The notes under the pieces are model-generated. The model had not been told where the DNA came from, did no database searches, and was given only the letters and a program-made list of their open reading frames with translations. Made by a program: the position numbers and the translations under genes. From NCBI RefSeq assembly GCF_000179555.1, contig NZ_AECZ01000010.1, positions 86,895-150,894 of the forward strand: DNA of 64,000 nt. The letters run 5' to 3'. Below, one piece after another: positions 20,385 through 41,423 of this stretch. Source of the stretch: Solidesulfovibrio fructosivorans JJ] (GTDB taxonomy: Bacteria > Desulfobacterota > Desulfovibrionia > Desulfovibrionales > Desulfovibrionaceae). Each line of letters starts with the position of its first letter. Position 1 is the stretch's first letter.

Positions 20385-21146
20385 GTGGCTCTTACCAACG
20401 TAGCGATTTCTAACGCAAAACCAGGAAAGTCTGTTGTCCGGTTGAAGGACGAGCGAGGCTTGTATTTAGAAATCTCACCACGGGGCGGAAAATGGTGGCG
20501 GCTGCGCTACTGGATCGGCGGGAAGGAGAACCGGATTTCCCTTGGCGTCTATCCCGACGTCTCCCTCAAAGATGCTCGGGGGCGGCGTGACGAGGCTCGT
20601 AAGCTCATCGCCAACGGCATCGACCCGAGCCAAGCCCGCAAGGAAGAAAAAGCCGAAATCGCCTCCGACGCCGTGACCTTTGAGAAGGTAGCGCGGGAAT
20701 GGTTCGCCAAGTTCAAGGAGAACTGGACACCCGGCCACGCCGCCCGGACCATGCGGCGCTTCGAGATGGACGTCTTCCCGTGGATCGGCGCGCGCCCCAT
20801 CCGCGACATCCTGGCCCCGGAGCTACTGACCACCATTCGTCGAATCGAATCCCGGTGAGCCATCGAGACGGCGCACCGGACCTTGCAGAACTGCGGCCAA
20901 GTCTTCCGCTACGCCGTGGCGTCTGGCCATGCTGACCGCGACATCTCCGGCGACCTGCGCGGAGCCATGCGCGGAGCCATCCCCCCTTCCAAGGAAAAGC
21001 ATCACACTTCCGTCATCGACCCCAGGGACGTGGCGTCCCTGCTGCGGACTATCGAGACGTACCAGGGCTCTTTCATGACCATGAGCGCCCTACGCTTGGC
21101 CCCTATGCTGTTCGTGCGCCCCGGCGAACTGCGCCATGCCGAATGG
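20385..21146 (+). pseudogene. P4-type tyrosine recombinase (integrase), interrupted and truncated
   Basis: The frame begins MALTNVAISNAKPGKSV with the DUF4102 arm-binding domain, then the core-binding domain (TFEKVAREWFAKFKENWTPGHA). A TGA at 20856-20858 interrupts it after RRIESR. The same frame goes on directly as AIETAHRTLQNCGQVFRYAVA and into the start of the catalytic domain (LAPMLFVRPGELRHAEW). Here the family sequence breaks off near 21146, so the HxxR and Tyr catalytic residues are missing. Homologues usually have Gly where the stop is, so GGA to TGA is the likely change. It lies 172 bases downstream of tmRNA, the classical attachment site of this integrase class. Confidence 0.9.
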
Positions 21147-21477
21147 ACGAAATACACAACAAGCCTTCACTTCATCCTCACAAATTCAATAAAATAACTT
21201 GAAGACCAGCTCCATTCAATGGATAAAATTAAAAAAATAGCAACACAAGAGCGAGACGAATTTATAAACAATTTAATCTTGGTTTTATATCAAAGATAGA
21301 CTGCTTAGCTTTAATGTCAAAAATTGGATGAAAGACACTTCTTTAAACTTTCTTGATTCTATAATAGCTCCAGCCACAACGCTGTCAATACCGTATTCCT
21401 GGCCCGTACCTTCATACTCAAGACCCGGTTCCGATTTGACCAGAGGAAATAAGAGCAGAACGCCGCAGAGGGTACTG
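21147..21477. other. AT-rich junction after the integrase remnant
   Basis: Composition drops sharply in AT-rich sequence from about 21150. It contains no recognisable gene. The minus strand holds an open stretch of about 60 codons, from the 3' end of the regulator gene to a TAA near 21296, with a segment LEYEGTGQEYGIDSVVAGA that I cannot assign. This looks like leftover island DNA joined to the core chromosome. No second copy of the tmRNA 3' end was noticed. Confidence 0.4.
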
Positions 21478-22902
21478 TCAGGACGAGGAATGGCGCGTCA
21501 GCCCATGCTGGCGCAGCAAGGCATAGAGCCTGGCCCGGGACAACCCCGACAGGGCCTCGGCCCGTTCCATGCTCTCCCCGGCAACGTGCAGTAAAGCCTC
21601 CAGGTAGAGCCGGTCGATCCGGGCCAGTTCCTTGGCCCGAAAGGCACGAATGGGAGGGAAATGCTCCGGATCGAGGTCGGGACGCGGAGAGGGTTCCCGT
21701 TCCGCGATCGGGGCGCTCTCGACCGTGACGGAACGGCGGGCCAGCCAGGCTCGGATGTGCACCGGCAAATGCCGGGGGAGCAGGGTCGTTTCGGCCTCGG
21801 CCGCAGCCAGGGCGCTGTCCGTGGCGCTGAAAAGTTCACGCACGTTGCCGGGCCAGCCGTATTCGAAAAGCGCACCCCAAAATTCCGGTGAGCCCTCCCT
21901 GGCCGGCTCGTCCTCCTCCCCGGCCCGCATCTGCAGGCGATGGCGGCAAAGTGCCTCGATGTCCACCGTGCGGCCTCGCAGCGGCGGCAGTTCTATGGTC
22001 ATGCCCCGCAGCCTGAAGAGCAGGTCCTGGCGAAAGGTCCAATCCGCCACCATCCGTTCCAGATCCCGGTTGGTGGCCGCCACCAGCCGAAAATCGCTGC
22101 GCACCTCCTCGGTGGCCCCCACCGGGCGAAAGCGATGCTCCTGCAGCAGGCGCAGGAAGGCCTTTTGCACGGCCAGGGGCAGCTCACCGATCTCGTCGAG
22201 AAACAGCGTGCCGCCGTGGGCTTGGCGGATCAGCCCCGGATGCTTCTTCTCGGCCGTGGTGAAGGCCCCCTTCTCGTGGCCGAAGAGCATGCTCTCCACC
22301 AGCGATTCCGGCAGGGCGGCGCAGTCCACCACCACGAAGGGCCCGTCGCGACGGTCGCTGTTGTCGTGGATGACCCGAGCGAAAAGCTCCTTGCCCGTGC
22401 CGGTCTCGCCCACGATCAGGACGTTGGCCCCGCTTCTGGCCGCCCGGGCCGCCATGTCCAGGCAGGCCGCCAGCGCCTTGCTCTCGCCGATGATGCCTTC
22501 GCGCCGCAGCGGAGCCCTGGGCTTGGCCAGAGCCTTGTTGTGGTGGTACTCCACGGCCCGGCTTATGGGGAGACGGATTTTGCTCAGGGTGCCGGGTTTG
22601 GTGATGTAGTCCCAGGCCCCGCTTTTGATGGCCAACTCGGCCCCGTCCGGGTCGCCCTGGCCGGTGAGGATGATGATCTCGGGCGCGTCCGGCATCTCAC
22701 GGACGGCCGGGATGTGCTTTAGGCCATTGCCGTCGGGCAGGACCACGTCCAGCACCACCACGTCGAAACCGCCCAGGGCCAGCTTTTCCAGGCCGGTCTC
22801 AAGGCTGTTGGCCGCCTCGCTTTCCCAGCCCAGGCCGGCGATGATGGCCTGGAGGGAGCGGCAGAAGCCGACGTCGTCGTCGATGACGAGAATGCGGGGC
22901 AT
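21478..22902 (-). CDS. sigma-54 response regulator with altered GAFTGA loop
   Basis: 474 residues. Receiver: IDDD at 7-10, phospho-acceptor D52 (VLDVVLPDG), TKPG. AAA+ domain: GETGTGKE, FLDEIGE, ATNRDL, WPGNVREL. The sigma-54 contact loop reads GAFTTA instead of GAFTGA. The C-terminal Fis-type DNA-binding helix is AEALSGLSRARLYALLRQHG. GGGAGGCGGACAATC precedes the ATG at 22902. It follows its kinase gene by 26 bases. The divergent Hdr operon begins with a -24/-12 promoter, so this protein is its likely activator (inference). Confidence 0.93.
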   Translation of the reverse strand: MPRILVIDDDVGFCRSLQAIIAGLGWESEAANSLETGLEKLALGGFDVVVLDVVLPDGNGLKHIPAVREMPDAPEIIILTGQGDPDGAELAIKSGAWDYITKPGTLSKIRLPISRAVEYHHNKALAKPRAPLRREGIIGESKALAACLDMAARAARSGANVLIVGETGTGKELFARVIHDNSDRRDGPFVVVDCAALPESLVESMLFGHEKGAFTTAEKKHPGLIRQAHGGTLFLDEIGELPLAVQKAFLRLLQEHRFRPVGATEEVRSDFRLVAATNRDLERMVADWTFRQDLLFRLRGMTIELPPLRGRTVDIEALCRHRLQMRAGEEDEPAREGSPEFWGALFEYGWPGNVRELFSATDSALAAAEAETTLLPRHLPVHIRAWLARRSVTVESAPIAEREPSPRPDLDPEHFPPIRAFRAKELARIDRLYLEALLHVAGESMERAEALSGLSRARLYALLRQHGLTRHSSS

Positions 22903-22928: not shown

Positions 22929-24875
22929 TCAGACCGCGACGAAAAGAACCTCCCGAATCACCCGGTCCAGTTCCTCGAAACAAAACGGCTTGGCCAGCAC
23001 CCGCCTGCCGCCGCAGGCCCGCAGCATGTCCCCGGCCAGGGCCTCGTCATGGCTGGAGAGCATCACCACCGGCAGGTCCGGCCGCAACTCCAGCAGCTCC
23101 CGGGCCAAAAGAATGCCGTCCTGGCCGGGCCGCGACAGATCGACCAGGGCCAGATCGAAGCCCCGGGGATCTTCAGATAATGCCCGCCTGGCCTCGCCGC
23201 GTCCCGTGCTGGTTTTGACCGCATAGCCCAAACGGGCCAGGGCCATGGTCGTGCAGTGGACCATCTCCGGGTCGTCGCCCGCGAACAAAATGCGGGCCTG
23301 CGGCCGGGGCGGCAACTCCCTGGCCGGGACCGACGCGTCCGGTGTCCCGGCAACGGTCGGCCCCTTGGGAAACAGGACCCGAAAGGAGGTCCCGAGCCCG
23401 GGATGGCTTTCGACGCTTATGGCCCCGCGCATCTGGGTCACGATGTGCCGGGCCACGGTCAGGCCCAGGCCCGTGCCGTGGCCCTCGCGCTTGGTGCTGA
23501 AAAACGGCTCGAAAATCCGTTTCATGACGTCGCTGGTCATGCCCTGTCCGGTGTCGCTGACGCAAAGCCGCAGATAGGCCCCCGGCGGCAGGGACGACTC
23601 CTCGGACCAGTCGCCCTCCGTGACCACGGCGTCCTCGATGCGGACGGTCAAAAGGCCCCCCTCCTGGTCTTTCATCGCCTCAATGGCATTGGTCAAAAGA
23701 TTCATTATCACTTGGTGGCCCCGGGTCGGGTCACCCCGCATTTCGCTGCGCGCCGCCTCGATGCGCAGGCGGATGGACAGGCCGGGGGGCAGGCCCGGGG
23801 CCAGGAACTTGAGACATTCCTTGACCAGGGTGCTCAGGCGGAAACGCACGGGCGTGTCGCTTTCCACGCTACGTCCCAGGGAAAGCAACTGTTCGCCGAG
23901 CGCCCGGGCCCGCCCCACGGCCTCGACGATCTCCCGCAGGGACTCGGCCTGGGGATCGCCGGCCTCAAGCCGCTCCAGACATAGTTCGGCATGCAGGATG
24001 ATCGGTCCGAGAATGTTGCGCAGGTCATGGGCGATGCCGCTGGCCAGGGTACCGATGACCTCCATCTTCTGGGCGTGGCGCAACTGTTTTTCCAGGCCGC
24101 TGACTTCCGTGGAATCGCGCCAGACAAAGGCGTAGCCCTCCACCAAGCCGTGCTTGCCCCAAACCGGGGAAATGGTCTGGTCGCACATGCGGGTGTCCCC
24201 GGCCGCGTCCACCAGCAAAAAACGGCCCTTCCAGACGTCGCCGCGCTCCAGGGCGGCCGCGCCGCGCTCGAATTTCCGGGCCTGCCGGCTGCCCTTGTAA
24301 AAGGTCTTGAGACCGCGTCCCCGGGCCTGCCCTTGCGACACCCCGGTCATGGCCTCGAAAGCCTGATTGACGTATTCGATGCGAAAGCGGTCGTCGGTGA
24401 CGATCACCGCTTCCATGGCCTGCTCGATGGCCGCGGCGAGCTTGTGGCATTGCCTGAAGGCACGCTGTTCCCGGCTGGCGTCGCGCAGGCGCACGGCCAC
24501 GGCGGTCACCTTCCCGGCCGCGTCCAGAAGCGGCACCAGCCGCGCGTCCGCCACCCTGTCCGGCGGCAACGCCAACCGGTAGCGGCGCGACGTCCGCGAC
24601 AGCAGGACCTCGGCCACCGCGCCCCGCCAGAACTCCCCGTCGTCGTCCTCGAAACAGGTAGACAGCGAACCGTACCGACCGGCCTTGCGGTCGGCCGGCA
24701 GCCAGCCGGCCAGCCCCGGATCGACGGCCAGGACGGTTCCGTCCGGTGCCACGATCACCACGTCCTCCGGCTCCGAAGACGGATCACAGGCCGGTACGGC
24801 CCGGGACGGACGCGTCTGCGCGTCCGTGGAAGACGCCATGTTTTCCGGCGTCGGTCCATCCGTATTTTTTCCCAT
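22929..24875 (-). CDS. soluble PAS sensor histidine kinase with C-terminal receiver
   Basis: 648 residues, no membrane segment. An N-terminal PAS-like region (DVVIVAPDGTVLAVDP) and a clear PAS (IEQAMEAVIVTDDRFRIEY, QAFEAMTGVSQ) are followed by HisKA (GIAHDLRNILGPIILHAEL), N-box MNLLTNAIEAM, DTGQGM and GTGLGLTVARH. The C-terminal receiver has FAGDDPE, VDLSRPGQDG (Asp kept) and AKPF. The ATG at 24875 is preferred over 24902 because GAGGCGGG lies ahead of it. It is transcribed with the sigma-54 regulator downstream, and away from the Hdr operon. A cytoplasmic redox or metabolite signal is plausible but not shown. Confidence 0.92.
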   Translation of the reverse strand: MGKNTDGPTPENMASSTDAQTRPSRAVPACDPSSEPEDVVIVAPDGTVLAVDPGLAGWLPADRKAGRYGSLSTCFEDDDGEFWRGAVAEVLLSRTSRRYRLALPPDRVADARLVPLLDAAGKVTAVAVRLRDASREQRAFRQCHKLAAAIEQAMEAVIVTDDRFRIEYVNQAFEAMTGVSQGQARGRGLKTFYKGSRQARKFERGAAALERGDVWKGRFLLVDAAGDTRMCDQTISPVWGKHGLVEGYAFVWRDSTEVSGLEKQLRHAQKMEVIGTLASGIAHDLRNILGPIILHAELCLERLEAGDPQAESLREIVEAVGRARALGEQLLSLGRSVESDTPVRFRLSTLVKECLKFLAPGLPPGLSIRLRIEAARSEMRGDPTRGHQVIMNLLTNAIEAMKDQEGGLLTVRIEDAVVTEGDWSEESSLPPGAYLRLCVSDTGQGMTSDVMKRIFEPFFSTKREGHGTGLGLTVARHIVTQMRGAISVESHPGLGTSFRVLFPKGPTVAGTPDASVPARELPPRPQARILFAGDDPEMVHCTTMALARLGYAVKTSTGRGEARRALSEDPRGFDLALVDLSRPGQDGILLARELLELRPDLPVVMLSSHDEALAGDMLRACGGRRVLAKPFCFEELDRVIREVLFVAV

Positions 24876-25236: not shown

Positions 25237-27261
25237 ATGGCCAACAGAATCGGGGTCTACGTCTGCCATTGCGGCACCAACATCGCCGGCAAGGTGGACA
25301 CTGCCGCCGTGGCCGGCTTCGCGGCCGGACTCAAAAACGTGGCCGTGGCCCGGGACTACAAGTTCATGTGCTCCGATCCCGGCCAGGAAACCATCATACG
25401 CGACATCAAGGCGTACCGCTTGAATCGGGTGGTGGTGGCTTCGTGTTCGCCGCGTCTGCACGAGAAAACCTTCCAGAACGCCTGCGCCCGCGCCGGGCTC
25501 AACCCCTTCCTCTTCCAGATGACCTGCATCCGGGAACACTGCTCCTGGGTGGTGGCCGATCCGGCCGAGGCCACGGCCAAGGCCAAGCACCTCGTGGCCG
25601 GAGCCGTGGACCGGGTCAACCACCACGAGGAACTCTACTCGCGCACCGAACCCGTGCACCCCGACGTGCTGGTGGTCGGCGGCGGCATCGCCGGCATCCA
25701 GGCCGCCCTGGACATCGCCAAATCCGGGCACAGGGTCCATCTGGTGGAACGGAGTCCCTCCATCGGCGGGCACATGGCCCAGTTCGACAAGACCTTCCCG
25801 ACGCTGGACTGCGCCGCCTGCATCTCCACGCCCAAGATGGTGGCGGTATCCCAGGACCCGAACATCAACCTCATGACCTATGCCGAGGTGGCCGAGGTCA
25901 CGGGGTTTGTCGGCAACTTCACGGTCACCATCCGCCGCAAGCCCCGCTACATCGACGAAACCAAATGCACGGGCTGCGGACTGTGCCTGGAGAAGTGCCC
26001 GACCAAGGTCCCGAGCGAATTCGAGGAAGGCATCGGCATACGCCGGGCCATCTACCGCAATTCGCCCCAAAGCGTGCCCAATAAGCCCGTCATCGACACC
26101 GAGCACTGCCTGTACTTCCGCAAGGGCAAGTGCCGGGTGTGCGAAAAGAACTGCCCCTCCGGGGCCGTCGATTTCGAGCAAAGGGAAAGCCTGCTGACGC
26201 TCGAGGTCGGCACCATCGTCATGGCCACCGGGTTTGCCGCCTTCGACCCCACGCCCCTTGGCCAGTACGGTTTCGGCCGCTACCCCGAGGTGTACACGGC
26301 CCTGCAGTTCGAACGCTTAAATAACGCCGTGGGGCCAACCGGCGGCAAGATCGTCATGAAAAACGGGGCGCCGCCCGCGTCCGTGGCAATCATCCATTGC
26401 GTGGGCAGCCGCGACGCCGCCCATCATCCCTACTGCTCGCGCGTGTGCTGCATGTACGCGCTCAAATACGACCACCTGATAAAAGACAAGCTCGGCCACG
26501 ACACGGAGGTCTACAACTTCTACATCGACCTGCGCTGCTTCGGAAAGGGCTACGAGGAATTCTACGAGCGGGTGCAGAAGGAAGGCGTGACCTTCATTCG
26601 GGGCCGGCCGGCCCTGGTCACGGACGAGGCGCTCTCCCCGGAAGAGGAAGGCAAGCTCATCGTGGTCGGCGAGGACACCCTGCTTGGCCGCACCCTGCGC
26701 CTGCCCGTGGACATGGTGGTCCTTTGCACGGCCATGGAGCCGCGACACGACGCGGCCGAGGTGGCCCGGACCTTCGGCATAAGCCAGGGCCTCGACAAGT
26801 TCTTTCTGGAGGAACACCCAAAGCTCGGGCCGGTCTCCACGGCCACGGACGGCGTCTATCTGGCAGGCACCTGCCAGGGGCCCAAGGACATCCCGGACAC
26901 CGTGTCCCATGCCTCGGGCGCGGCCTGCCAGGCCCTGGCCCTGGCGAGCAAGGGCCAGGTGACCATCTCGCCCACGGTCAGCCACATCAACCCGGACGTG
27001 TGCATCGGCTGCGGCATCTGCATCAAGCTGTGCGCCTACGGGGCCATTGATTTCGACCAGCGCCTGGGCGTGGCCGTGGTCAACGAGGCTATGTGCAAGG
27101 GCTGCGGGGCCTGCGCCGGACACTGTCCATCCGGGGCGGCCCAGGTGCGCCACTTCAACCAGCGGGAGCTTTTCGCCGAGATCGACGGCTTGATCGAGCC
27201 GTTGCCCGTTTTGATCGCCGCCACGGACGAGGAAACCAAGGCCGCGCCTGCCCCGGCCTGA
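25237..27261 (+). CDS. hdrA: heterodisulfide reductase subunit A-like flavoprotein
   Basis: 674 residues. The N-terminal HdrA domain has VCHCG (10-13) and CSDPGQ. FAD is bound at GGGIAG (148-153). The insert has DCAACISTPK (191-200) and a ferredoxin-type cluster motif CTGCGLCLEKCP (244-255). Two more 4Fe-4S motifs, CIGCGICIKLCAYG and CKGCGACAGHCPSG, lie near the C-terminus. HdrA is the bifurcating flavin subunit that splits electrons between ferredoxin and a disulfide-type acceptor. GGGAGGCGAC precedes the ATG. It is the first gene behind the -24/-12 promoter. Confidence 0.95.
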   Translation: MANRIGVYVCHCGTNIAGKVDTAAVAGFAAGLKNVAVARDYKFMCSDPGQETIIRDIKAYRLNRVVVASCSPRLHEKTFQNACARAGLNPFLFQMTCIREHCSWVVADPAEATAKAKHLVAGAVDRVNHHEELYSRTEPVHPDVLVVGGGIAGIQAALDIAKSGHRVHLVERSPSIGGHMAQFDKTFPTLDCAACISTPKMVAVSQDPNINLMTYAEVAEVTGFVGNFTVTIRRKPRYIDETKCTGCGLCLEKCPTKVPSEFEEGIGIRRAIYRNSPQSVPNKPVIDTEHCLYFRKGKCRVCEKNCPSGAVDFEQRESLLTLEVGTIVMATGFAAFDPTPLGQYGFGRYPEVYTALQFERLNNAVGPTGGKIVMKNGAPPASVAIIHCVGSRDAAHHPYCSRVCCMYALKYDHLIKDKLGHDTEVYNFYIDLRCFGKGYEEFYERVQKEGVTFIRGRPALVTDEALSPEEEGKLIVVGEDTLLGRTLRLPVDMVVLCTAMEPRHDAAEVARTFGISQGLDKFFLEEHPKLGPVSTATDGVYLAGTCQGPKDIPDTVSHASGAACQALALASKGQVTISPTVSHINPDVCIGCGICIKLCAYGAIDFDQRLGVAVVNEAMCKGCGACAGHCPSGAAQVRHFNQRELFAEIDGLIEPLPVLIAATDEETKAAPAPA

Positions 27262-27281
27262 CGTCGCCAACGGAGGATATG

Positions 27282-27704
27282 ATGGACGACTTCGAACCCA
27301 CCATCGTGGCCTTTGTCTGCAACTGGTGCACCTACACCGCCGCCGACCTGGCCGGCACCTCGCGCATGATCCAGTCCCCCAACGTGCGGTTGGTGCGCAT
27401 GATGTGCACGGGCATGGTGGACCCCAAGTACGTGATCAAGGCGCTTCTGTCCGGGGCCGACGCGGTGCTTATCAGCGGCTGCCACCCCGGCGACTGCCAC
27501 TACATCAACGGCAATTACAAGGCCCGGCGGCGGGTGAAGCTCTTGAAGGAAATCCTGCCGCGCCTGGGGATCGAGGAGGACCGGCTCCTGCTCACCTGGG
27601 TCGGGGCCAGCGAGGGCAACGAATTCGCGGCCACGGTCAACGGGCTCGTGGCCCGGATCAAGGAACTGGGACCCATCGAGGCCAGGCGCACCCTGGTCGT
27701 ATGA
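27282..27704 (+). CDS. mvhD: MvhD-family iron-sulfur subunit
   Basis: 140 residues. Conserved Cys occur in FVCNWCTYTAAD, VRMMCTGMVD and SGCHPGDCHY, which match the MvhD domain (2Fe-2S) that carries electrons between a hydrogenase or dehydrogenase partner and HdrA. GGAGG spacing favours the second of two adjacent ATGs. It lies 20 bases after hdrA and before an FrhB-like gene, which suggests electrons enter HdrA through this subunit. Confidence 0.93.
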   Translation: MDDFEPTIVAFVCNWCTYTAADLAGTSRMIQSPNVRLVRMMCTGMVDPKYVIKALLSGADAVLISGCHPGDCHYINGNYKARRRVKLLKEILPRLGIEEDRLLLTWVGASEGNEFAATVNGLVARIKELGPIEARRTLVV

Positions 27705-27728: not shown

Positions 27729-28883
27729 ATGTCTACCACCATGAAGATCGAAGTGCCGGGCGAGGGCCCGACCGCCGCCCTGCGGGGCGTTTTGGCCAAA
27801 CTGCTGGACGTGCCGGACGTGGCCGCCGTCTTCACCCTGCGCCACACCCCGGGGGGGGCGGCCATGCCGGCGCTTGTGACCGACCCGGAGCTTCTGGCCG
27901 AAGCCGATCCCCTGGCTCCGGCTTTTCCCCTCAATGCCGCGACGATCCTTGCCCGGCTCACCCGGGGCGGCACCGAGGGAACCATCGCGGCGGTGCTTCG
28001 CCCCTGCGAGATCAGGGCCTTCGTGGAACTGGTCAAGCTCAACCAGGGCAACCTGGAGAACGTGCTGCTTTTAAGTGTGGATTGCCCCGGGGCCTTTAAC
28101 AACACGGACTATCGGGACTACGTGGCCCTCAACGGCGTCAAGGAGGTCGGCCGGACGTTCGTGCGCCGGATGCTCTCAACCGACGCGGCCGCCACCGACG
28201 ACGGTCTGGAGGTGGCCCGGGCCTGCCAGGTTTGCGAACACCCCGTGGCGGCCGCCGCCGACGGAGCCATCGGCCTTTTCGGCAATGATCCGGAAAAGGT
28301 CATGCTCGTGGTTCCCCAGACGGCCAAAGGCATGGGACTCTTGCGCCGCCTGGACCTGCCGGCTGCCGACGAGGCGCTTACGGCCAACCGCGAGGCGGCC
28401 CTGGCCAATCTGCTGCGTGAGCGCATGGTCCGGCGCGACGCCATGTTCGCCGAAACGGGCGCGGCCGTGGCGGGCCTCGAAAAACTCGGCGCCTACCTCG
28501 CCGGCTGCGTCAACTGCTACAACTGCCGGGTGGCCTGCCCGGTCTGCTACTGCCGGGAATGCGTCTTCGTCACCGACGTTTTTGACCACTCTCCCTGGGA
28601 ATACTTGAACTGGGCCAAGCGCAAGGGCGCGCTGAAGCTCCCGGCGGACACGCTTTTTTACCACATGACCAGGCTCGCCCACATGAGCCTTGCCTGCGTG
28701 GGCTGCGGCCAGTGTTCCAACGCCTGCCCGAGCGGCGTGCCGGTGATGGAGCTTTTCCGCACTGTGGCGGCCGGAGCCCAGGCGGCTTTCGGCTACGAGG
28801 CCGGGCGCAGTCCCGAGGAAGCGCCTCCGCTGTCGCTCTTCCAGGAAAAGGAATTCGCCGAAGTCACGGCGGGAGCGCAGTAA
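27729..28883 (+). CDS. FrhB/FdhB-like iron-sulfur flavoprotein subunit
   Basis: 384 residues. The FrhB-type segment VLRPCEIRAFVELVKLNQG and VDCPGAFNNTDY are present. Cys-rich cluster regions follow: GCVNCYNCRVACPVCYCREC and CVGCGQCSNACPSG. The family includes beta subunits of F420-hydrogenase and formate dehydrogenase that bind FAD and 4Fe-4S and pass electrons from a cofactor. Placed between mvhD and a second HdrA, it is probably the input module of the complex. The electron donor cannot be told from sequence; F420 is not expected in this kind of organism. Confidence 0.85.
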   Translation: MSTTMKIEVPGEGPTAALRGVLAKLLDVPDVAAVFTLRHTPGGAAMPALVTDPELLAEADPLAPAFPLNAATILARLTRGGTEGTIAAVLRPCEIRAFVELVKLNQGNLENVLLLSVDCPGAFNNTDYRDYVALNGVKEVGRTFVRRMLSTDAAATDDGLEVARACQVCEHPVAAAADGAIGLFGNDPEKVMLVVPQTAKGMGLLRRLDLPAADEALTANREAALANLLRERMVRRDAMFAETGAAVAGLEKLGAYLAGCVNCYNCRVACPVCYCRECVFVTDVFDHSPWEYLNWAKRKGALKLPADTLFYHMTRLAHMSLACVGCGQCSNACPSGVPVMELFRTVAAGAQAAFGYEAGRSPEEAPPLSLFQEKEFAEVTAGAQ

Positions 28884-28904: not shown

Positions 28905-31900
28905 ATGAAGCGCACCTGCGACGCCCTGGTGATCGGGGCCGGCATCGGCGGCATCCGGGCCGCGTTGGACCTGGCCGAGGCCGGGCACACCGTGACCGTC
29001 ATCGACAAGCGGCCCCATATTGGCGGCATCCTCACGCGCCTGGACCACCAGTTCCCGTCCGACCACTGCGGCATGTGCAAGATGTTGCCGTTGACCGAAC
29101 GCGAAGCCTCGAGCGAGTTCTGCCTGCGCAAGGGGCTTTTCCACCGCAATATCGACATCATGCTCTCCTCGGAGCTGACCTCCCTGGACGGCGAGCCGGG
29201 CGCGTTTTCGGCCGTCATCAACCGCCGGTCGCCCTTTGTCGACGCCACCAAGTGCGTGGGCTGCGGGGCCTGTGCCAAGGTGTGCCCGGTGTCCGTGCCA
29301 AACGAATTCAACGCCGGGCTCACCAGCCGTGGGGCGGTGTATCTGCCCGTGCCCCATGCCATTCCCAACCACTACGTGGTGGACCTCGATGCCTGCCAGC
29401 GCTGTTGGCAATGTTACGAAGCCTGTCCCACCGGAGCCATCGACTTCAAGCTCGACGAGCGCGAACGCCACGGCATCCTGGTGGTCGACCCCGATCCCGA
29501 GGCGGCCGGGCGCTTCGGCTCCTGGCTCGGCGCGCTCAAGTTCCCGGTCGTCTCCGCCGCCACCGGCGACAAGGCGCTCGACATCCTGGCCTCGGACGCG
29601 CCCGCCCGCATGATGCTCCTCTCGCCGGGCCTCACCGACATGGAGGCCTCGCGTGTCCTGACCCGGGCCCTGGAACTGCGCCCGGACCTGGCCGTGTTCG
29701 TTCCCGGCGACCCCGAAATGGCCGACGCCGCCCGGGAGATCATCGGCCTCGGAGCCCGGGCCGTCATGCCCCATCCCCTTTCCCGCAAGGTCTTCGTGCC
29801 CTGGATCGACAAGCAGTTCATGCGCCTGGCCTCGGATGACGCCGTGACCCTGGACGTGGCCGCCGTGATCCTGGCCGGGGGCTTCGACTGCTATGATCCC
29901 GGAACGGACGCGGCCGTGCTCGGCTACGGCGTGCTGCCCGGGGTGGTCACCTCGGTGGAATTCGAACGCCTGCTCTCCGGTACCGGCCCGACCGGCGGGA
30001 AGCTCACGCGCCCCGGCGACGGCAGGCCCGTGCGCGACATCGCCTGGCTCCAGTGCGTGGGCTCGCGCGATCTGCGCAAAAACGCCGATTTCTGCTCGTC
30101 TTTTTGCTGCATGGCGAGCATCAAGGAAGCCGTTCTGGCCAAGCGGGCCACGGGCGGCGAGACCAAGGCCACCATCTTCGCCATGGACGTGCGGACCTTT
30201 GGCCGGGATTTCGAGCACTACCGCCAGGAAGCCCAAAGCGTCCACGGCGTGCGCTTCGTCCACGGCCGGCTCCACACCACCCTGCCCGATCCCTCGGGCG
30301 ACGGCCGGCTGCGCCTGTCCTACACCGACGAGGCCGGGGCGCTTCACGAGGAATCCTTCGACATGCTGGTCCTGGCCGTGGGAGCGCGCCCGCCGGCCGG
30401 CATGGAAGGACTCGCCAAGGCGGCCGGGGTGGACACCAACGCCTTCGGTTTTTGCGCCACCCCGCCCTTCGACGCCAACCGGACCAGCCGACTGGGCGTC
30501 TTCGCCGCCGGGGCCATGGGCGGTCCCCGGGACATCGCCGAGTCGGTCATCCAGGCCAGCGCGGCCGCCCTTGGCGCGTCCCGGATCATCCAGCGCTTCG
30601 CCTCCATCCGGGAGCGCCCCCCCGAGGCCAAGCCGGTCTATCGGGATGTGTCCCGAGAAGCGCCCAGGGTCCTGGTCACGCTGTGCGACTCCTGCCCGAC
30701 CCTGACCCAGGCCGTGGATGTGGAGCAGGTGCGCCGGGGCCTCGCCGACCTGCCCGGAGTGTGCCAGGTGGAATGCGTGTCCCGGGCCTGCACCGGCGAG
30801 GGCTGGAAGGCCATCACGAAACTGGCCGCGGATCTCAAGCCCAACCGCATCTTGATCGGCGCATGCATGCCCTACGCCTACGTGCCGAAGCTGCGGGAAC
30901 TGGGAACGGCCCTTGGCCTGCGGCCGACGCTCATGGACGTCGTGGACATCCACACCCCGGCCTTTACGGCCGCCATGGAAGGAAACTCCGGGGCCGGGCC
31001 CGCTGTGGAGCAGGAGATCACGGCCCGGCTCGGCATGGCCGAGGCCAAGTTGCTCGGGGCCGACCCCACTCCGCTGCCGCGGCCGCTGGCCGTGACCCCG
31101 GCCGCCCTGGTGGTGGGCGGGGGGCTGGCCGGCATGACCGCCGCGCTCGGCATTGCCGATCACGATTACAAGGTCACGCTGGTGGAAGAGGCGGCGGAAC
31201 TCGGGGGGCTGGCCAGACACGTGCGCCTGACCCTTGGCGGCGGCGATCCGGTCCGCTTCCTGGAGGGGCTTGTCGACCGGGTGCGCCGCCATCCCAACAT
31301 CCGGGTCATGACCGAGGCCAGGGTGTCCCTGTCCACGGGCAAGGCCGGCCGGTTCCTGAGCATCGTCTCCACCGACGAGGGTGGCCTACCGGTGGAGCAC
31401 GGCGTCACCATCCTGGCCACGGGCGGCCGCCGGGCCAAGATCTACGACTTCGGCTTTCTGACCCGCAAGACCGTGACCACCCACCAGGATCTGGAACGCA
31501 TGCTCACCAGCGGCGAGCTGGACACGGCGACCCTCGGCAGCGTGGCCATGATCCAGTGCTTCCGCTCCCGGGACGAAAACCGGCGCTACTGTTCGCGCGT
31601 ATGCTGCGCCGGAGCGCTCAAAAACATCCTCTATCTAAAAAATAAGCACCCCGACCTGCCCATCTATGTCTTTTACCGCGACATCATGAGCTACGGCTTC
31701 GCCGAGCAGTACTACACCAAGGCCCGCCGGGCCGGAGCGGTGTTCATCCGCTACGATCCAGCCCACAAACCGCAAGTCCGCTTCGACGAGGCGGGCAAGC
31801 CCGTCATCACCGGCTACGACCCGGTGCTGCGTCGCGCGGTCGAGGTCCACGCCGACCTGCTTTCCCTCTCCGACGGCATCGAACCCGGGGATACGGCGGA

Positions 31901-32393
31901 ACTGAGCGAGGTCTTCGGCGTGCCCGTGGGTCCGGACGGCTTCTTCCAGGAGGCCGAATCCAAGTGGCGACCCGTGGACTTCCTGCGCTCGGGCATCTTC
32001 GTGTGCGGCGTGGCCAGGGCCCCGGGCACCATGGACGAGACGGTCTGCTCGGCCAAGGCGGCGGCCAGACACGCCCTGCGGGTCCTTGGCGAAAAGAACC
32101 TGGCCCCGGGCCATGTGCTGGCCTCGGTGCGCCACAGCCTGTGCACGCGCTGCGGCAAGTGCCTGGACGTGTGCCCTTACGGCGCCAGGACCCTCGATAC
32201 CGAACACGACCGCATCGTGGTGGACGACATCCTGTGCCAAGGCTGTGGCTCGTGCGCCTCGGCCTGTCCCAACAGCGCCAGTTTCATCCGGGGCTTTTCC
32301 GACCGCCAGGTCCTTTCCGTCATCGACGCGGCCCTGGCCGTTTCGGGCCGGCCCGCGCCCGCCCCGGCAACGGATGTGAAGGAGACCATATGA
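28905..32393 (+). CDS. HdrA-HdrA fusion protein with embedded degenerate receiver domain
   Basis: 1162 residues. First flavoprotein half: FAD motif GAGIGG (11-16), DHCGMCK (53-59), cluster motifs CVGCGACAKVCP (117-128) and CQRCWQCYEACP (164-175). Residues about 189-308 then read as a CheY-like fold (ILVVDPDPEA, MMLLSPGLTDMEA, VFVPGDPEMADAA, VMPHPLS) that lacks the phospho-Asp (S240), one acidic-pocket residue (P196) and the Lys (H290). The flavoprotein resumes (VILAGGFDCYDPG). An HdrA N-terminal-like domain starts near 588 and a second FAD site is GGGLAG (738-743). C-terminal clusters are CTRCGKCLDVCP and CQGCGSCASACP. AAAAGGAG precedes the ATG. It is likely the core of the Hdr complex encoded here. 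Confidence 0.9.
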   Translation: MKRTCDALVIGAGIGGIRAALDLAEAGHTVTVIDKRPHIGGILTRLDHQFPSDHCGMCKMLPLTEREASSEFCLRKGLFHRNIDIMLSSELTSLDGEPGAFSAVINRRSPFVDATKCVGCGACAKVCPVSVPNEFNAGLTSRGAVYLPVPHAIPNHYVVDLDACQRCWQCYEACPTGAIDFKLDERERHGILVVDPDPEAAGRFGSWLGALKFPVVSAATGDKALDILASDAPARMMLLSPGLTDMEASRVLTRALELRPDLAVFVPGDPEMADAAREIIGLGARAVMPHPLSRKVFVPWIDKQFMRLASDDAVTLDVAAVILAGGFDCYDPGTDAAVLGYGVLPGVVTSVEFERLLSGTGPTGGKLTRPGDGRPVRDIAWLQCVGSRDLRKNADFCSSFCCMASIKEAVLAKRATGGETKATIFAMDVRTFGRDFEHYRQEAQSVHGVRFVHGRLHTTLPDPSGDGRLRLSYTDEAGALHEESFDMLVLAVGARPPAGMEGLAKAAGVDTNAFGFCATPPFDANRTSRLGVFAAGAMGGPRDIAESVIQASAAALGASRIIQRFASIRERPPEAKPVYRDVSREAPRVLVTLCDSCPTLTQAVDVEQVRRGLADLPGVCQVECVSRACTGEGWKAITKLAADLKPNRILIGACMPYAYVPKLRELGTALGLRPTLMDVVDIHTPAFTAAMEGNSGAGPAVEQEITARLGMAEAKLLGADPTPLPRPLAVTPAALVVGGGLAGMTAALGIADHDYKVTLVEEAAELGGLARHVRLTLGGGDPVRFLEGLVDRVRRHPNIRVMTEARVSLSTGKAGRFLSIVSTDEGGLPVEHGVTILATGGRRAKIYDFGFLTRKTVTTHQDLERMLTSGELDTATLGSVAMIQCFRSRDENRRYCSRVCCAGALKNILYLKNKHPDLPIYVFYRDIMSYGFAEQYYTKARRAGAVFIRYDPAHKPQVRFDEAGKPVITGYDPVLRRAVEVHADLLSLSDGIEPGDTAELSEVFGVPVGPDGFFQEAESKWRPVDFLRSGIFVCGVARAPGTMDETVCSAKAAARHALRVLGEKNLAPGHVLASVRHSLCTRCGKCLDVCPYGARTLDTEHDRIVVDDILCQGCGSCASACPNSASFIRGFSDRQVLSVIDAALAVSGRPAPAPATDVKETI

Positions 32394-32938
32394 ACGCCAT
32401 CCCAACCGAAGCCGGCCCCGAACTGGAAGCCGTCCGGGATATGGTGCGCTCCTGCCTGCAGTGCGGCACCTGCACCGCCTCCTGTCCCAACGCCGCAGCC
32501 ATGGACGTCTCGCCAAGGCGGTTGTGGCGGCTTCTTACCACCGGCCACGCCGACGAGGCCCTGGCCAGCCGCAGCTTCTGGCTGTGCTCCTCCTGTTACG
32601 CCTGCACGCTGCGCTGTCCGCGCGGACTGCCGCTGACCGACGCCATGGCGGCGCTTAGGCGCCTGGCCAGCCGGCACGACCCGGCCGCGGCCAAGGAGGG
32701 GGCGGCCTTTTACGGGACGTTCATGGACAATGTCCGGCGCAACGGACGGGTCCAGGAAACGGATCTTATGGGCCGGTATTTTCTGGCCATGAAAAATCCG
32801 CTTTTGCCCCTGACCTTCGCGCCGCTCGGTCTGCGGCTTTTCGCCAAGGGCAAGCTCCACCGGCCCGTAACCGAACAGCGGGGCAGGCTCGGCTCCATGT
32901 TCGCCACGGCCGCCAAGGACGAGGGGGACCGGTCATGA
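32390..32938 (+). CDS. hdrC: heterodisulfide reductase subunit C-like iron-sulfur protein
   Basis: 182 residues. Two 4Fe-4S motifs, CLQCGTCTASCP and CSSCYACTLRCPRG, are spaced as in HdrC, which wires HdrA to HdrB. GGAGACC precedes the ATG. The start overlaps the previous stop (ATGA) and its own stop overlaps the next start in the same way, so the three genes are translationally coupled. Confidence 0.93.
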   Translation: MNAIPTEAGPELEAVRDMVRSCLQCGTCTASCPNAAAMDVSPRRLWRLLTTGHADEALASRSFWLCSSCYACTLRCPRGLPLTDAMAALRRLASRHDPAAAKEGAAFYGTFMDNVRRNGRVQETDLMGRYFLAMKNPLLPLTFAPLGLRLFAKGKLHRPVTEQRGRLGSMFATAAKDEGDRS

Positions 32939-33819
32939 AGTACGCCTACTACCCAGGCTGCTCACTCATGGAGAGCGCCGTCGAGTTCGACCAGGCGACA
33001 AGGGCCATGCTCGAGCGCCTGGACGTGACCATCGAGGAGATCCCGGACTGGACCTGCTGCGGCGCCAGCGCCGTGGACTCGGTCAGCCAGTCCCTGGGAC
33101 ACGCCCTGCCGGCCAGGAACCTGGCCCTGGCCGAGAAGCATCTGCCGGGCCTGGACATCCTCATGCCCTGCGCCGCCTGCTACCTCAACCACCTCAAGCT
33201 CACGCGCCAGGCGACCGGAGCCGTGACCCGCGAGGTCAACCACCTCCTGGCCGACGAGGGACTCACCTACACCGGCAAGGGCGGCCGGGTGCGCCACCTC
33301 CTCGACGTGCTGACGCGCGACGTCGGCCCGGACGTGATCAAGGCCAAGGTGACCCGGGAACTGGCCGGACTGGTGGTCGCGCCCTACTACGGCTGCCAGG
33401 TGCTGCGCCCCTATTCCGTGTTCGACGACCCCGAACATCCCCGGTCCATGGAGCCGATCATCGAGGCCCTCGGGGCCACGGTCCATCCCTGGCGCCGGGG
33501 GAACGTCTGCTGCGGGGCGTCGCTGATGGCCACGCACAAGGGCGCGGCCCTGGCCTCCGTGACGGCTATCCTCAAGGCGGCGGCCGGAGCCGACGTCATC
33601 GTCACGGTGTGTTCCATGTGCCAGATGAACCTGGACGCCTACCAGGCGCAGGCACTGGGCCACGGCGCGTCCGCCGTGACCGTCCTCTATCTGCCCCAGC
33701 TGGTCGGACTGGCCCTGGGGCTCTCCCCACGGGAGGTGCTCATGGAGAAAAACCTGGCCATTAACCCTGTGTTTACGTCCAAGCTGGAACAAACCGGGGC
33801 TGCCCGGGCCGTCTCCTGA
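32935..33819 (+). CDS. hdrB: heterodisulfide reductase subunit B-like protein
   Basis: 294 residues with two CCG domains. The first has YYPGCSLME, DWTCCGAS and PCAACYLNH; the second has YYGCQVLRP, NVCCGASLMATH and CSMCQMNLD. In HdrB these Cys bind the two non-cubane 4Fe-4S clusters where disulfide is reduced. All expected Cys are present, so it should be active on a disulfide or persulfide. It overlaps hdrC by four bases. Confidence 0.94.
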   Translation: MKYAYYPGCSLMESAVEFDQATRAMLERLDVTIEEIPDWTCCGASAVDSVSQSLGHALPARNLALAEKHLPGLDILMPCAACYLNHLKLTRQATGAVTREVNHLLADEGLTYTGKGGRVRHLLDVLTRDVGPDVIKAKVTRELAGLVVAPYYGCQVLRPYSVFDDPEHPRSMEPIIEALGATVHPWRRGNVCCGASLMATHKGAALASVTAILKAAAGADVIVTVCSMCQMNLDAYQAQALGHGASAVTVLYLPQLVGLALGLSPREVLMEKNLAINPVFTSKLEQTGAARAVS

Positions 33820-33870: not shown

Positions 33871-34794
33871 ATGTTCAAGGACATCGTGCTGGCCGTCACA
33901 CCATCGGCCATCTGTGAAAACGCTGCGGAAAAGGCCTTCTCCTTTGCCAAGCTTTTCGACGCCAAGCTCTACCTCGCCCATGTGTGCGGCCTGGAGCAGG
34001 GCTGGGGCGAGATCGAATACCTCGAATCATCCGGGGCCACAGCGCGCATCAAGGAGAATATCGAGGCCTACTACAAGGACCGCATCGCCGGCGTGCCGCA
34101 TTGCGAGATCATCGTGCGGGCGGGCATCCCGCACAACGAGGTCCTGCGCCTGGCCAGGCAGAAGAACGCCGACCTGATCATCATGGGTCCCCACACCAAG
34201 GAATACACCGAAAAGCGCTCCCGCATGTGGGGCATGGCCGGCAGCACCCTGGAACGCGTCAGCCAGCGCGCTTCCTGCCCGGTCATGATCGTCACCAACC
34301 AGGCTCCGGCCGCCCAGCGGTTCGGCCACCTGATCGCGGCCACGGACTTCTCCGACCAGGCGGAATGCGCCGTGTCCTACGCCGGACAGATGGCCCGGCA
34401 TTACCGGGCCTCGCTGACGGTCTTCCACGTCCTGGACAAGGGGGACCTCGACACTGCGGCGCTGCAGGCGGCCCAGGCGGACACGGTGGCCAGGCTGCGG
34501 GAGATTTACGAACCCCGCCTGGCCGGCATCGCCAACCACGACTTCCAGTGCCTCGTCGGGGACCCGGCCATGGAGATCCTGGGGATGTCCCAGCGGACCG
34601 AGACCGATCTCATCATCATGGCCCACCATTCCAAGGAGAAGGATCCGGAACAGGCTTTTTTGGGCTCCACCGTGACCAAGGTAGCGCTTAATGCCGCCTG
34701 TCCGACCATGAGCGTAAACAAGCACTTCGATCTGCGCTGCGGCCTGATGTACGACCAGACCGGCCAGGCCGTGTCGGCCGAGGCCACGGCCTGA
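33871..34794 (+). CDS. tandem universal stress protein (UspA)
   Basis: 307 residues with two Usp domains. The first (MFKDIVLAVTPS to CPVMIVTNQ) has an ATP-loop-like region ADLIIMGPHT; the second (FGHLIAATDFSDQAE to CPTMSVNKHF) has TDLIIMAHHS. The canonical G-x2-G-x9-G-S/T loop is only partly kept (GMAGSTLERV; GSTVTKVAL). Usp proteins bind ATP or AMP and help in energy stress. Its place inside the Hdr operon, 51 bases after hdrB, suggests co-regulation rather than a direct electron-transfer role. CAAGGAGG precedes the ATG. Confidence 0.9.
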   Translation: MFKDIVLAVTPSAICENAAEKAFSFAKLFDAKLYLAHVCGLEQGWGEIEYLESSGATARIKENIEAYYKDRIAGVPHCEIIVRAGIPHNEVLRLARQKNADLIIMGPHTKEYTEKRSRMWGMAGSTLERVSQRASCPVMIVTNQAPAAQRFGHLIAATDFSDQAECAVSYAGQMARHYRASLTVFHVLDKGDLDTAALQAAQADTVARLREIYEPRLAGIANHDFQCLVGDPAMEILGMSQRTETDLIIMAHHSKEKDPEQAFLGSTVTKVALNAACPTMSVNKHFDLRCGLMYDQTGQAVSAEATA

Positions 34795-34882: not shown

Positions 34883-36250
34883 ATGGACACGCAACCCATC
34901 ACCGCCACGTCGCCCCCGCCCCTCGTTCTCGACGCGAACACCCAGGGACGGCTTAAAGGCCAGCCTTTGCGGCTCTTGCCGGAAAATCTCAACTTGCAGG
35001 CCTGCATGACCTGCGGAGCCTGCGTCAACGGCTGTCCGGCCACGGGCACGCCCGGTCTTGGCGACCTCGACGTGCGCAAGATCTTGCGCATGCTGGTCCT
35101 GGGCCTGGTCGACGAGGCGGCGGCTACGAATTTCCCGTGGTTGTGCACGGGCTGCGGCCGCTGTTCACTGGTATGTCCCATGGGCCTGGACATCGTGCCG
35201 GTCATGGCGGAACTTAAGCATATGCGCCCCCGGGAACAGGTGCCGGGCATCCTGCACAAGGGCGTGGAACGGGTGTTGCGCTCGGGCAACAACATGGAAA
35301 TTTCCCAGTCCGAGTACCTCGCCACCCTTCTCGACGTGGGAAACGACCTGGCCGAGGAGGAATGCCCGGGATTTTACGTGCCCGTGGACAAAAAGGACGC
35401 GGACATCCTGTTTTTTCCCAATTCCAAGGAAGTCTACGGCGACTTCGAAGACATGAAATGGTGGTGGAAGGTGTTTTATGCCGCCAGGACCAACTGGACC
35501 GTGCCGTCGCGCAACTGGGAGGCCGTGGATTGGGGGCTTTTCTCCGGAAACTTCGAAGCAACAGCCATCTTGGCCAAACGCAAGATGGAGCTCCTGCGGG
35601 AACTCCATGTGGGCCGCATGATCATGCCGGACTGCGGCGGCGGCTCCTATGGCTGCCGGTCGGGCATGAAGATGTGCGCCATGGAGGATCCTACCGAACA
35701 GGTGGACTTCATCTACCTCTACGACTATCTTATGGAAGTGATCACCCAAGGCCGCATCAAGCTCGACAAAAGCGTCAACGTCGGCCGGCGCTTCACTTGG
35801 CACGACTCGTGTAAGCACGGCCGCGAACTGGAAAAACATTTCGGCAAGGCCTACTACGAGGAACCGCGTTATATCATTGCGCAGTGTGTGGACGATTTCG
35901 TGGACATGATCCCCAACCGCGTCAACAACTACTGCTGCGGGGCTGGCGGCGGCAACTGGCCCATGCCCTTCGAGGCCCAGTCGGCCTACCACGGCCGGCT
36001 CAAGTACGACCAGATCCGCCGCACCGGGGCGGACGTGGTGGTGGTGGGCTGCTCCAACTGCCGCGACCAGATGATGAAGCGGCTGCCGCGTTTCTACAAG
36101 GACTACAAGTATGAGGTGAAATACATCTGGCAGCTTGTGGCCGAGAGTCTTGTCCTTGAGCCGTATTCCGGAGAGGAACTGGTCCGGGCCGAGGCCGAGG
36201 CCGAAGCCCAATGGGAACGGTTGGGCGTCACCCCCGAAGACGTGCTGTAA
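34883..36250 (+). CDS. HmcF/DsrK/HdrD-like iron-sulfur protein
   Basis: 455 residues. Two 4Fe-4S motifs near the N-terminus (CMTCGACVNGCPATG, CTGCGRCSLVCPMG) are followed by CCG-type domains with DCGGGSYGC, HDSCKHGRELEKHFG, YCCGAGGGNW and GCSNCRDQM. This combination of an HdrC-like and an HdrB/D-like part is typical of HmcF and DsrK, cytoplasmic subunits of membrane redox complexes. No cytochrome b partner is encoded next to it, so it may act as a soluble partner of the Hdr complex. Last gene of the operon. Confidence 0.88.
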   Translation: MDTQPITATSPPPLVLDANTQGRLKGQPLRLLPENLNLQACMTCGACVNGCPATGTPGLGDLDVRKILRMLVLGLVDEAAATNFPWLCTGCGRCSLVCPMGLDIVPVMAELKHMRPREQVPGILHKGVERVLRSGNNMEISQSEYLATLLDVGNDLAEEECPGFYVPVDKKDADILFFPNSKEVYGDFEDMKWWWKVFYAARTNWTVPSRNWEAVDWGLFSGNFEATAILAKRKMELLRELHVGRMIMPDCGGGSYGCRSGMKMCAMEDPTEQVDFIYLYDYLMEVITQGRIKLDKSVNVGRRFTWHDSCKHGRELEKHFGKAYYEEPRYIIAQCVDDFVDMIPNRVNNYCCGAGGGNWPMPFEAQSAYHGRLKYDQIRRTGADVVVVGCSNCRDQMMKRLPRFYKDYKYEVKYIWQLVAESLVLEPYSGEELVRAEAEAEAQWERLGVTPEDVL

Positions 36251-38783: not shown

Positions 38784-39344
38784 TCAAATAAAAAGCGTGA
38801 CGGAACTTTGGCCGGCCTCCTGGAGAAACTTGGCCACACCGGCCACGGTGATGTTGGGATAATCCCGGATTTCATCCCGGGAAATCCCCATGACATCCAT
38901 GGACATCTCGCAAAGCACGATCTCCACGCCGAAATCAGCAGCTTGCTGCATCAACTGCTCGAGTGTCAACACACCTTTTTTTTTCATGACCGCCTGCATC
39001 ATGGCTCTTCCCATGCCAAACATGTCCATGTGCGACAAGGGCAGTTGCTTGGGGCCGCGCGGCAACATGCGATCGAACATCTTGGCCGTCAATTCCGCCT
39101 TGGGCACGCGCTTGTTGGGATCGCGCATGGCCGTCGAGCCCCAGAACGTCACAAAGACCACCACCCGCTCGTACATGGCGGCGGCTCCGGTGGCGATAAT
39201 AAAGGCCGCCAATACCCGGTCCAAATCCCCACTGAATACAACCATGGAGAGTTGGTCCTTGGGCATTTGCTCCTGGAGCGCTTCGATGCGCTCCTCCAGT
39301 TGTGTGATACGCTGCTCGAGTTTCTCCACCACGCTGTCTTCCAT
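38784..39344 (-). CDS. DsrE2-type sulfur carrier (COG2210-like)
   Basis: 186 residues. An N-terminal coiled coil (VEKLEQRITQLEERIEALQE) precedes the DsrE2 core: MVVFSGDLDRVLAAFIIATG, FVTFWGSTAMRD and EIVLCEMSMDVMGI, where the Cys is the conserved sulfur-binding residue. DsrE2 proteins pass sulfane sulfur to TusA in organisms with sulfur-linked Hdr systems. GGGAG sets the start at 39344. It closes the minus-strand Hdr cluster that begins with TusA. Confidence 0.83.
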   Translation of the reverse strand: MEDSVVEKLEQRITQLEERIEALQEQMPKDQLSMVVFSGDLDRVLAAFIIATGAAAMYERVVVFVTFWGSTAMRDPNKRVPKAELTAKMFDRMLPRGPKQLPLSHMDMFGMGRAMMQAVMKKKGVLTLEQLMQQAADFGVEIVLCEMSMDVMGISRDEIRDYPNITVAGVAKFLQEAGQSSVTLFI

Positions 39345-39432
39345 GTGAATCTCCCTTGGCAGTAGTTTTCGGAATGTGAAGAAACGGGGAGAGCCCACGC
39401 CCTCCCCGTTCTGGATGCATCAGTGCAGGCGA

Positions 39433-39807
39433 CTAGAACACGAACACGGCATCGGCTTCGATAGCCGCGATGTTGACGGCTCCGCCGGCCGTGGTCTCGG
39501 CCCCCTCGATGAGGTCGCTTTCATCGATCTTGCGCTCCGCGATGCAGGGCTTGCACACCTTGATTTCGCCCCCGAGGCTGGTGAAGTCCTCCATCAGTTT
39601 CTTGATCGGCGGAAATCCACCCCCGGACACCATGTGGTCCACAAAGCCCTTCTTGGCCAGGTAGACGCCGTTGGACTGCAGCACCACCGTGGCCTTGATT
39701 TCCATGGCCAGGGCCGCGTTGCCGAGCACGAAGGGCAGGTGCGCCTTTTCGGGGTCGTCGTTGGCATGGGTGGCGATGTAGAGGATCTTTTCCTGCTTTT
39801 CGGACAT
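39433..39807 (-). CDS. DsrE-family protein
   Basis: 124 residues. DsrE/DsrF-like fold: ILYIATHANDDPEKAHLPFV, then ALAMEIKATVVLQSNGVYL and IKVCKPCIAERKI with two Cys that could carry sulfur. AAGGAAGAAACGACC precedes the ATG. It lies between an HdrB-like gene and the DsrE2 gene, so a sulfurtransferase or carrier role with TusA is likely (inference). Confidence 0.85.
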   Translation of the reverse strand: MSEKQEKILYIATHANDDPEKAHLPFVLGNAALAMEIKATVVLQSNGVYLAKKGFVDHMVSGGGFPPIKKLMEDFTSLGGEIKVCKPCIAERKIDESDLIEGAETTAGGAVNIAAIEADAVFVF

Positions 39808-39836
39808 GGTCGTTTCTTCCTTGCGGTTCGTACGGT

Positions 39837-41077: not shown

Positions 41078-41092
41078 GATGCTTCTCCTTGG

Positions 41093-41410: not shown

Positions 41411-41423
41411 GGGGTCCTTCCTT

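Follow-up and report, generated by a model that had tools for sequence, protein, structure and literature searches.

Why should a metabolic flavoprotein carry, in the middle of its chain, the receiver domain of a signalling system, and carry it in a form that can no longer be phosphorylated? The question is raised by P0001, an HdrA-like protein encoded in the window, by which we mean the whole stretch of 64,000 nucleotides of Solidesulfovibrio fructosivorans JJ] analysed here (assembly GCF_000179555.1, contig NZ_AECZ01000010.1, positions 86,895–150,894 of the forward strand; the host genome measures 4.67 Mb). Predicted structure and sequence comparison together confirm that a receiver is embedded in this protein. 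The rest of P0001 has the HdrA fold, with the flavin adenine dinucleotide (FAD) domain and the cysteines of the ferredoxin arm (model, alignment), and the cluster cysteines of its family are invariant or nearly invariant in 80 sequences. We call the protein HdrA-like because its scores lie under the NCBIfam cutoffs for HdrA and HdrA2 (644.5 of 1100 bits for HdrA2, 483.1 of 1400 and 469.9 of 1300).

Residues 189–311 are predicted to form a (beta-alpha)5 receiver fold with a predicted local distance difference test (pLDDT) score of 89, and a fold search with this insert returns NtrC-type receivers among the best PDB matches. The initial annotation had read a receiver at about residues 189–308, between the ferredoxin clusters and the rest of the first HdrA half, and had proposed these two checks among others; both bear it out. 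The window insert itself matches Pfam PF00072 (Response_reg) with 16.8 bits (E 0.0076) and misses the curated cutoff of 30.2. All 83 aligned family members match Response_reg at E ≤ 0.01, and homologues with an intact active site reach E 1.1e-35. Both Pfam and the full-length model place the receiver and the enzyme in one chain, as in response regulators with an enzymatic output. The insert lies where the ferredoxin arm meets the FAD domain: residue 312 of HdrA (PDB 5odc) corresponds to residue 183 of P0001, and residue 316 to residue 313. In five relatives of our main alignment, in eight loci of the phylum sample described below and in archaeal HdrA the two flanks are joined directly, with no receiver. 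The initial annotation had left room for the segment being an ordinary part of HdrA FAD domains, and these joined flanks show otherwise.

What has become of the active site? Intact relatives carry D-D, D, T and K at the five catalytic positions of the alignment, and the window receiver has D-P, S240, G268 and H290 there. Four of the five residues are lost, and one of the two acidic positions is Pro196. The original reading that the phospho-Asp is replaced by S240, and the Lys by His (H290), holds in the alignment with intact relatives; the Thr had been thought to be replaced by Pro, and its position is in fact Gly268. A non-phosphorylatable, receiver-derived module within the first HdrA half is thus present as described. 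By the definition given in the available part of PMC12632262 it is a pseudo-receiver of the aspartate-less subset. Lacking the phospho-accepting Asp, the window copy is not a phosphorylatable receiver that controls an enzyme; its intact relatives have the residues and would be the ones under such control.

The loss follows the history of the family. Our relatives comprise 208 distinct full-length sequences, made up of 121 proteins (query included) and 87 open reading frames (ORFs) from fetched loci; duplicates and fragments failing the coverage filter (such as L049, L056, L067, L068, L071, L073, L075–L077, L080 and L084) were left out of residue counts and tree. The segment is present in 203 of the 208, with all five residues in 49 and at least one missing in 154. 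When the tree is built with the receiver columns removed, a branch with support 81 sets the 49 intact sequences apart, another (100) the 154 degenerate ones and a third (100) the five that have no receiver. The split between intact and degenerate thus coincides with a single branch, and the three states (none, intact, degenerate) need 2 changes on the 208-row tree. Two changes are also needed on a second tree of 58 rows with extra receiver-less outgroups, where support is 99 for the receiver-bearing sequences and 100 for the degenerate ones and the intact set is paraphyletic. Most simply, the receiver would have been gained once, intact, and would have decayed once, a polarity whose rooting rests on the receiver-less rows. 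All five residues are also found in 120 of 120 homologues of a Desulfonema magnum protein (the best 120 of 6116 at E ≤ 1e-150), which were not chosen by residue and overlap in part with the 49 intact rows. On the trees the ancestral form has all catalytic residues, and the simplest reading is that the fusion was at first a functional phospho-acceptor and not a docking module. The initial annotation had suggested a docking or allosteric module. For the window protein this stays plausible; what the annotation missed is that the loss is derived in one clade.

Is the degenerate receiver still under selection? Among intact sequences the receiver nearly equals the best-conserved part of the protein (mean pairwise identity 69.0%, against 39.7–70.6% in the five other parts); among degenerate sequences it ranks last of the six parts (43.3% against 54.5–75.4%, with 45 of the 154 rows drawn). 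The ratio of nonsynonymous to synonymous change (dN/dS), from simple Nei-Gojobori counts uncorrected for codon bias in the 60 closest pairs, is lower in the receiver than in the rest for three intact pairs (0.094/0.131, 0.085/0.192 and 0.055/0.111), and a fourth has zero receiver differences. For the window protein and its nearest relative the values are 0.316 and 0.167. Several residues that vary in intact forms are nearly fixed in the degenerate clade (R254 in 100%, K303 in 99%, R307 in 99%, D302 in 96% and W300 in 92%), and R250 is found in 94% of the clade at a position where intact forms mostly have Glu. This pattern would fit relaxed phospho-chemistry together with a new packing or docking face. 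Because R254, K303, R307 and D302 are nearly fixed, and because dN/dS is 0.32 in the window pair, docking or allostery is plausible for the window protein. The family is a clean case in which receiver chemistry was lost once and the domain was kept in a whole clade.

Our preferred explanation, to which we give a probability of roughly 0.55, is that the insert is a receiver which a neighbouring kinase would phosphorylate in relatives to switch electron flow, and that the window copy probably remains only as a fixed element with a structural or docking role. Solved HdrA complexes show the arm to be mobile. An intact receiver phosphorylated at the Asp would change shape. Since it sits in the joint that links the two-cluster ferredoxin arm to the FAD domain, this change would move or lock the arm and so act as a gate for electrons passing to or from ferredoxin. 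In the window's clade that switch would have been locked in one state, helices alpha3 and alpha5 may have re-adapted to pack on the enzyme or a partner, and the divergent NtrC-type activator may have taken over control of the operon. Discussions of how flavin-based electron bifurcation is controlled usually turn on substrates and gene expression. A strictly conserved phospho-acceptor site at the arm joint makes direct gating by a kinase testable, and intact, frozen and receiver-less forms of one enzyme offer natural material for the question.

Kinases are often found nearby. Flanks of 5 kb or more on each side are available for 27 intact loci; 22 of these have a histidine kinase and 11 an NtrC-type gene. 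Several intact loci (e.g., L030, L052 and L057) have a same-strand kinase after hdrB, followed by a kinase with its own receiver; one such downstream kinase, in L168, has HAMP, PAS and HisKA domains (Pfam check). As a control we picked 20 receiver-less and 20 receiver-bearing loci (6 intact, 14 degenerate) from the match lists of the family and phylum samples, with up to about 8 kb on each side. A same-strand downstream kinase, read from the offsets, occurs in 5 of the 6 intact loci against 4 of the 20 receiver-less ones (p 0.01). All 14 degenerate loci have a divergent NtrC-type gene, and 9 have a kinase beside it. The specific tie to the divergent kinase that was first proposed is weakened by these counts, 9 of 14 for the kinase against 14 of 14 for the activator, and by the negative promoter scan reported next.

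Several results weigh against the gated-arm explanation. No kinase is found in 5 of the 27 well-flanked intact loci, and for any kinase nearby the control gives no significant difference (found at 15 of the 20 loci with a receiver and at 9 of the 20 without, Fisher p 0.11). The control loci are mutually related and were chosen by us from match lists, and for 2 of the 20 the downstream sequence is shorter than 2 kb. A same-strand downstream kinase and a nearby NtrC-type gene are also present beside the two receiver-less relatives with the best scores (L145 and L146). Hence, the kinases do not need the receiver, and the association may predate the insertion. A strict sigma-54 −24/−12 pattern with at most one mismatch has no hit upstream of the window operon. 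The placement of the receiver relative to the ferredoxin arm comes from a predicted model and is provisional as to the relative position of the domains. Finally, several degenerate pairs that lie further apart give a receiver dN/dS above 1 (the highest is 1.58), as plain decay would, with dS probably underestimated in these pairs. The strict sigma-54 pattern occurs in 3 of the 97 upstream stretches scanned, which include some from paralogous loci, with 0.64 expected from plain shuffles, and an upstream sigma-54 promoter for the operon is not supported.

A receiver in this place need not gate electrons. Its main role could be to localise or dimerise the enzyme, or to dock it to a kinase or partner, in intact and decayed forms alike. 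Of the pseudo-receiver structures available, fifteen are dimers without phosphorylation, according to the available part of PMC12632262, and the residues of alpha3 and alpha5 that are fixed only in the degenerate clade (R254, K303, R307, D302 and W300) look like a newly made interface. We nevertheless consider this account unlikely, if a serious contender: every intact-type row examined keeps all five catalytic residues, which is beyond the needs of docking, and the insertion is internal, at the boundary of arm and FAD domain, not terminal. One could also argue that in the window's clade the domain is a dying relic with no function of its own, tolerated since its removal would break the fold. 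Its low conservation there (43.3%), a dN/dS that in the window pair is roughly double the value for the rest, and the values above 1 in some distant pairs all point this way. A ratio of 0.32 in the window pair and the newly fixed residues point the other way, as does the finding of zero receiver-less rows inside the degenerate clade, with the proviso that a full-length query may under-sample such rows; on balance we regard a relic as rather improbable.

It would be a long shot to read the window-clade pseudo-receiver as an allosteric domain that binds a ligand such as a nucleotide. The pseudo-receiver of Caulobacter ShkA binds cyclic di-GMP (c-di-GMP), as the available part of PMC7010744 reports, and an emptied active site could take another anion, but the former active-site positions are unconserved in the degenerate clade (Asp site D 59%, G 31%, S 8%; Thr site A 62%, G 17%). 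That the segment is ordinary HdrA sequence misread as a receiver we reject, leaving it next to no probability. The window segment's own sub-threshold Pfam score is what speaks for it, against the directly joined flanks of receiver-less relatives and the E value of 1.1e-35 reached by intact homologues. Compared with these accounts, we continue to favour a phosphorylated receiver that switches electron flow in relatives and is frozen in the window protein.

How does P0001 compare with known systems? HdrA of methanogens (5odc, 8rwn, 7bkb) and HdrA2 have the same FAD domain with an inserted two-cluster arm and the same C-terminal ferredoxin domain, and both halves of P0001 align with them. P0001 differs in having two HdrA-like units per chain and a receiver spliced between arm and FAD domain. 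The available part of PMC2702500 describes locus VIII of Desulfobacterium autotrophicum, which encodes HdrA4, as tandem hdrL/hdrA together with mvhD, a gene for formate dehydrogenase B, and hdrCB, an arrangement shared with the operons here. That part mentions no receiver within HdrA and lists, in a legend, a CheY-like regulator among the neighbours; the comparison is by published description. Receivers on metabolic enzymes, e.g., thioredoxin reductase and pyruvate phosphate dikinase, are described in the available part of PMC5847659. Like these, P0001 has a receiver on an enzyme; here it is internal, the enzyme is of the HdrA type and a whole clade lacks the phosphorylation residues. Thioredoxin reductases also match the HdrA-like FAD domains of P0001 in the fold search. 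With the aspartate-less pseudo-receivers, as covered in the available part of PMC12632262, the window insert shares receiver kinship and the missing Asp; by term counts the main text of that paper has zero mentions of oxidoreductase, heterodisulfide or Desulfo-. NtrC-type receivers (NtrC1, NtrC4, NtrX and FleR) are among the nearest by sequence and structure, with the CheY-like archaeal receiver 3crn equally near. Unlike NtrC-type regulators, P0001 has no AAA+ or DNA-binding output. In the literature searched, which holds few subscription papers, we found no paper on a receiver within HdrA, and the available parts of PMC5109826, PMC10553843, PMC6295475 and PMC4215793 do not mention one. Public records already label such homologues "response regulator", which shows that automatic annotation picks up the domain.

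How widespread is the fusion? The closest named relatives of P0001 are from Solidesulfovibrio, namely P0002 (93% identical) and an S. alcoholivorans protein (91%). A match spanning the segment was found in 43 of the 199 genomes of the family sample, 2 of 14 in the window's own genus (E ≤ 1e-100). P0002 and the 43 genomes rule out a one-genome oddity or an assembly error. Of the 297 genomes in the phylum sample, 208 gave a match at E ≤ 1e-100, and 30 loci were fetched, 10 with a receiver and 20 without. Eight of the 20 align over both flanks; 11 have a different N-terminal part, their alignment starting only at about residue 300, and 1 is cut by the contig end. Most of the phylum matches listed start near residue 310, so the receiver-bearing form is a minority. 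A search with the receiver region alone returned two proteins only.

Kindred receivers also occur outside HdrA-like proteins. At four loci (L047, L082, L084 and L085) a gene for a tandem universal stress protein (Usp) holds a receiver between its two Usp domains (Pfam check of L082 and L047), and the receiver of L082 is 75% identical to that of the HdrA-like protein of the same locus. In a tree of 103 neighbourhood receivers the HdrA-borne and the four Usp-borne ones form one group (support 99), which adjoins 7 of the 8 included NtrC-type receivers (87), apart from the other receivers compared. This nearness is biased, since the NtrC-type receivers chosen were the best-scoring ones and the others those with 75–130 bits; weaker ones were left out, including the NtrC-type genes of degenerate loci. 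The Usp-borne receivers nest at two separate points within the HdrA-borne ones, each modestly supported (89 and 85), and the well-supported branches are compatible with a single origin. Wide occurrence of Usp-receiver-Usp genes is not supported: they were found in 0 of the 297 phylum genomes at E ≤ 1e-70, a negative that shows little, since only five candidates per genome were scored and the sample held no known positive. Tentatively, and short of an even chance, one could draw a wider picture for this sulfate-reducer lineage. A bifurcating or confurcating enzyme would have come under direct two-component control via a receiver at its hinge, the cassette would have been copied into Usp, putting both proteins within reach of one kinase, and loss of the Asp in the window's clade would later have frozen the gate. 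A separate fusion is seen in L064 (17903–19642), where two intact-looking receivers precede an HdrA N-terminal part; the genes after it resemble, by eye, NuoE/HydC- and HydB-type subunits.

The genes around P0001 form an operon-like row (hdrA, mvhD, frhB-like, the double HdrA-like gene, hdrC, hdrB, usp and hmcF-like), with the kinase and the NtrC-type activator divergent upstream (Table 1). Among 38 intact loci with the first operon gene in view, it encodes 1126–1191 amino acids in 32 and is shorter in six, most of them at a contig end. The one long first gene checked, in L019, is of the HdrL type with a pyridine-nucleotide domain; a further intact locus, L168, has a first gene of 1032 amino acids. 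In 11 degenerate loci the first gene is a plain HdrA of 671–791 amino acids. This change of partner coincides with one branch of the tree and is hence inseparable from shared descent.

Table 1. Coordinates of P0001, its parts and its neighbours in the window, and of Usp-receiver-Usp genes beside Hdr operons (numbered within their own loci)
Feature	Coordinates	Strand	Basis
Double HdrA-like flavoprotein with internal pseudo-receiver, P0001, 1162 amino acids	28905..32393	+	ORF, family profiles, full-length model
First HdrA half, part 1 (FAD-binding start and inserted two-cluster ferredoxin arm), residues 1–183	28905..29453	+	aligns with 5odc chain A 144–312
Receiver-derived insert (pseudo-receiver), residues 189–311; S240 codon 29622–29624	29469..29837	+	predicted fold, Pfam, residues
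First HdrA half, part 2 (rest of FAD domain), residues 313–566	29841..30602	+	aligns with 5odc chain A from 316; full-length model
Domain resembling HdrA N-terminal domain, residues 585–725	30657..31079	+	full-length model, 5odc alignment
Second HdrA FAD domain, residues 731–1066	31095..32102	+	profiles, full-length model, 5odc alignment
C-terminal two-cluster ferredoxin domain, residues 1070–1144	32112..32336	+	profiles, cysteine conservation, 5odc alignment
HdrA, first gene of operon, 674 amino acids	25237..27261	+	profiles
MvhD/FlpD-like electron-transfer protein (whole frame from first start codon)	27093..27704	+	ORF, profiles
FrhB/FdhB-like iron-sulfur protein	27729..28883	+	profiles
HdrC-like protein	32387..32938	+	profiles
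HdrB-like protein, two CCG domains	32935..33819	+	profiles
Tandem Usp	33871..34794	+	profiles; counterparts in four other loci hold a receiver between Usp domains
HmcF/DsrK-like iron-sulfur protein	34883..36250	+	profiles
Divergent hybrid sensor kinase (PAS, HisKA, HATPase, receiver)	22929..24875	-	profiles
Divergent NtrC-type sigma-54 activator, receiver with DD, D, T, K	21478..22902	-	profiles, residue alignment
Usp-receiver-Usp protein, L082	14177–15502	-	
Usp-receiver-Usp protein, L047	13941–15278		
Usp-receiver-Usp protein, L085	10827–12149		
Usp-receiver-Usp protein, L084	2831–4033		

Five loci with a decayed receiver (L012, L013, L014, L050 and L058) have a stand-alone receiver of about 153 amino acids between usp and the HmcF-like gene, at about 14.9–15.5 kb; those of L014 and L050 have an apparent DD, D, T, K set, and the window's row has no such gene. 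Elsewhere in the window, two frames at 20385–21197, beside the NtrC-type gene, resemble by eye pieces of a broken tyrosine integrase. A second Hdr-like cluster runs in the opposite direction at 38784–43421 and encodes, again by eye, an HdrA-like, a small HdrC-like and a CCG-type protein together with two small proteins that look DsrE-like.

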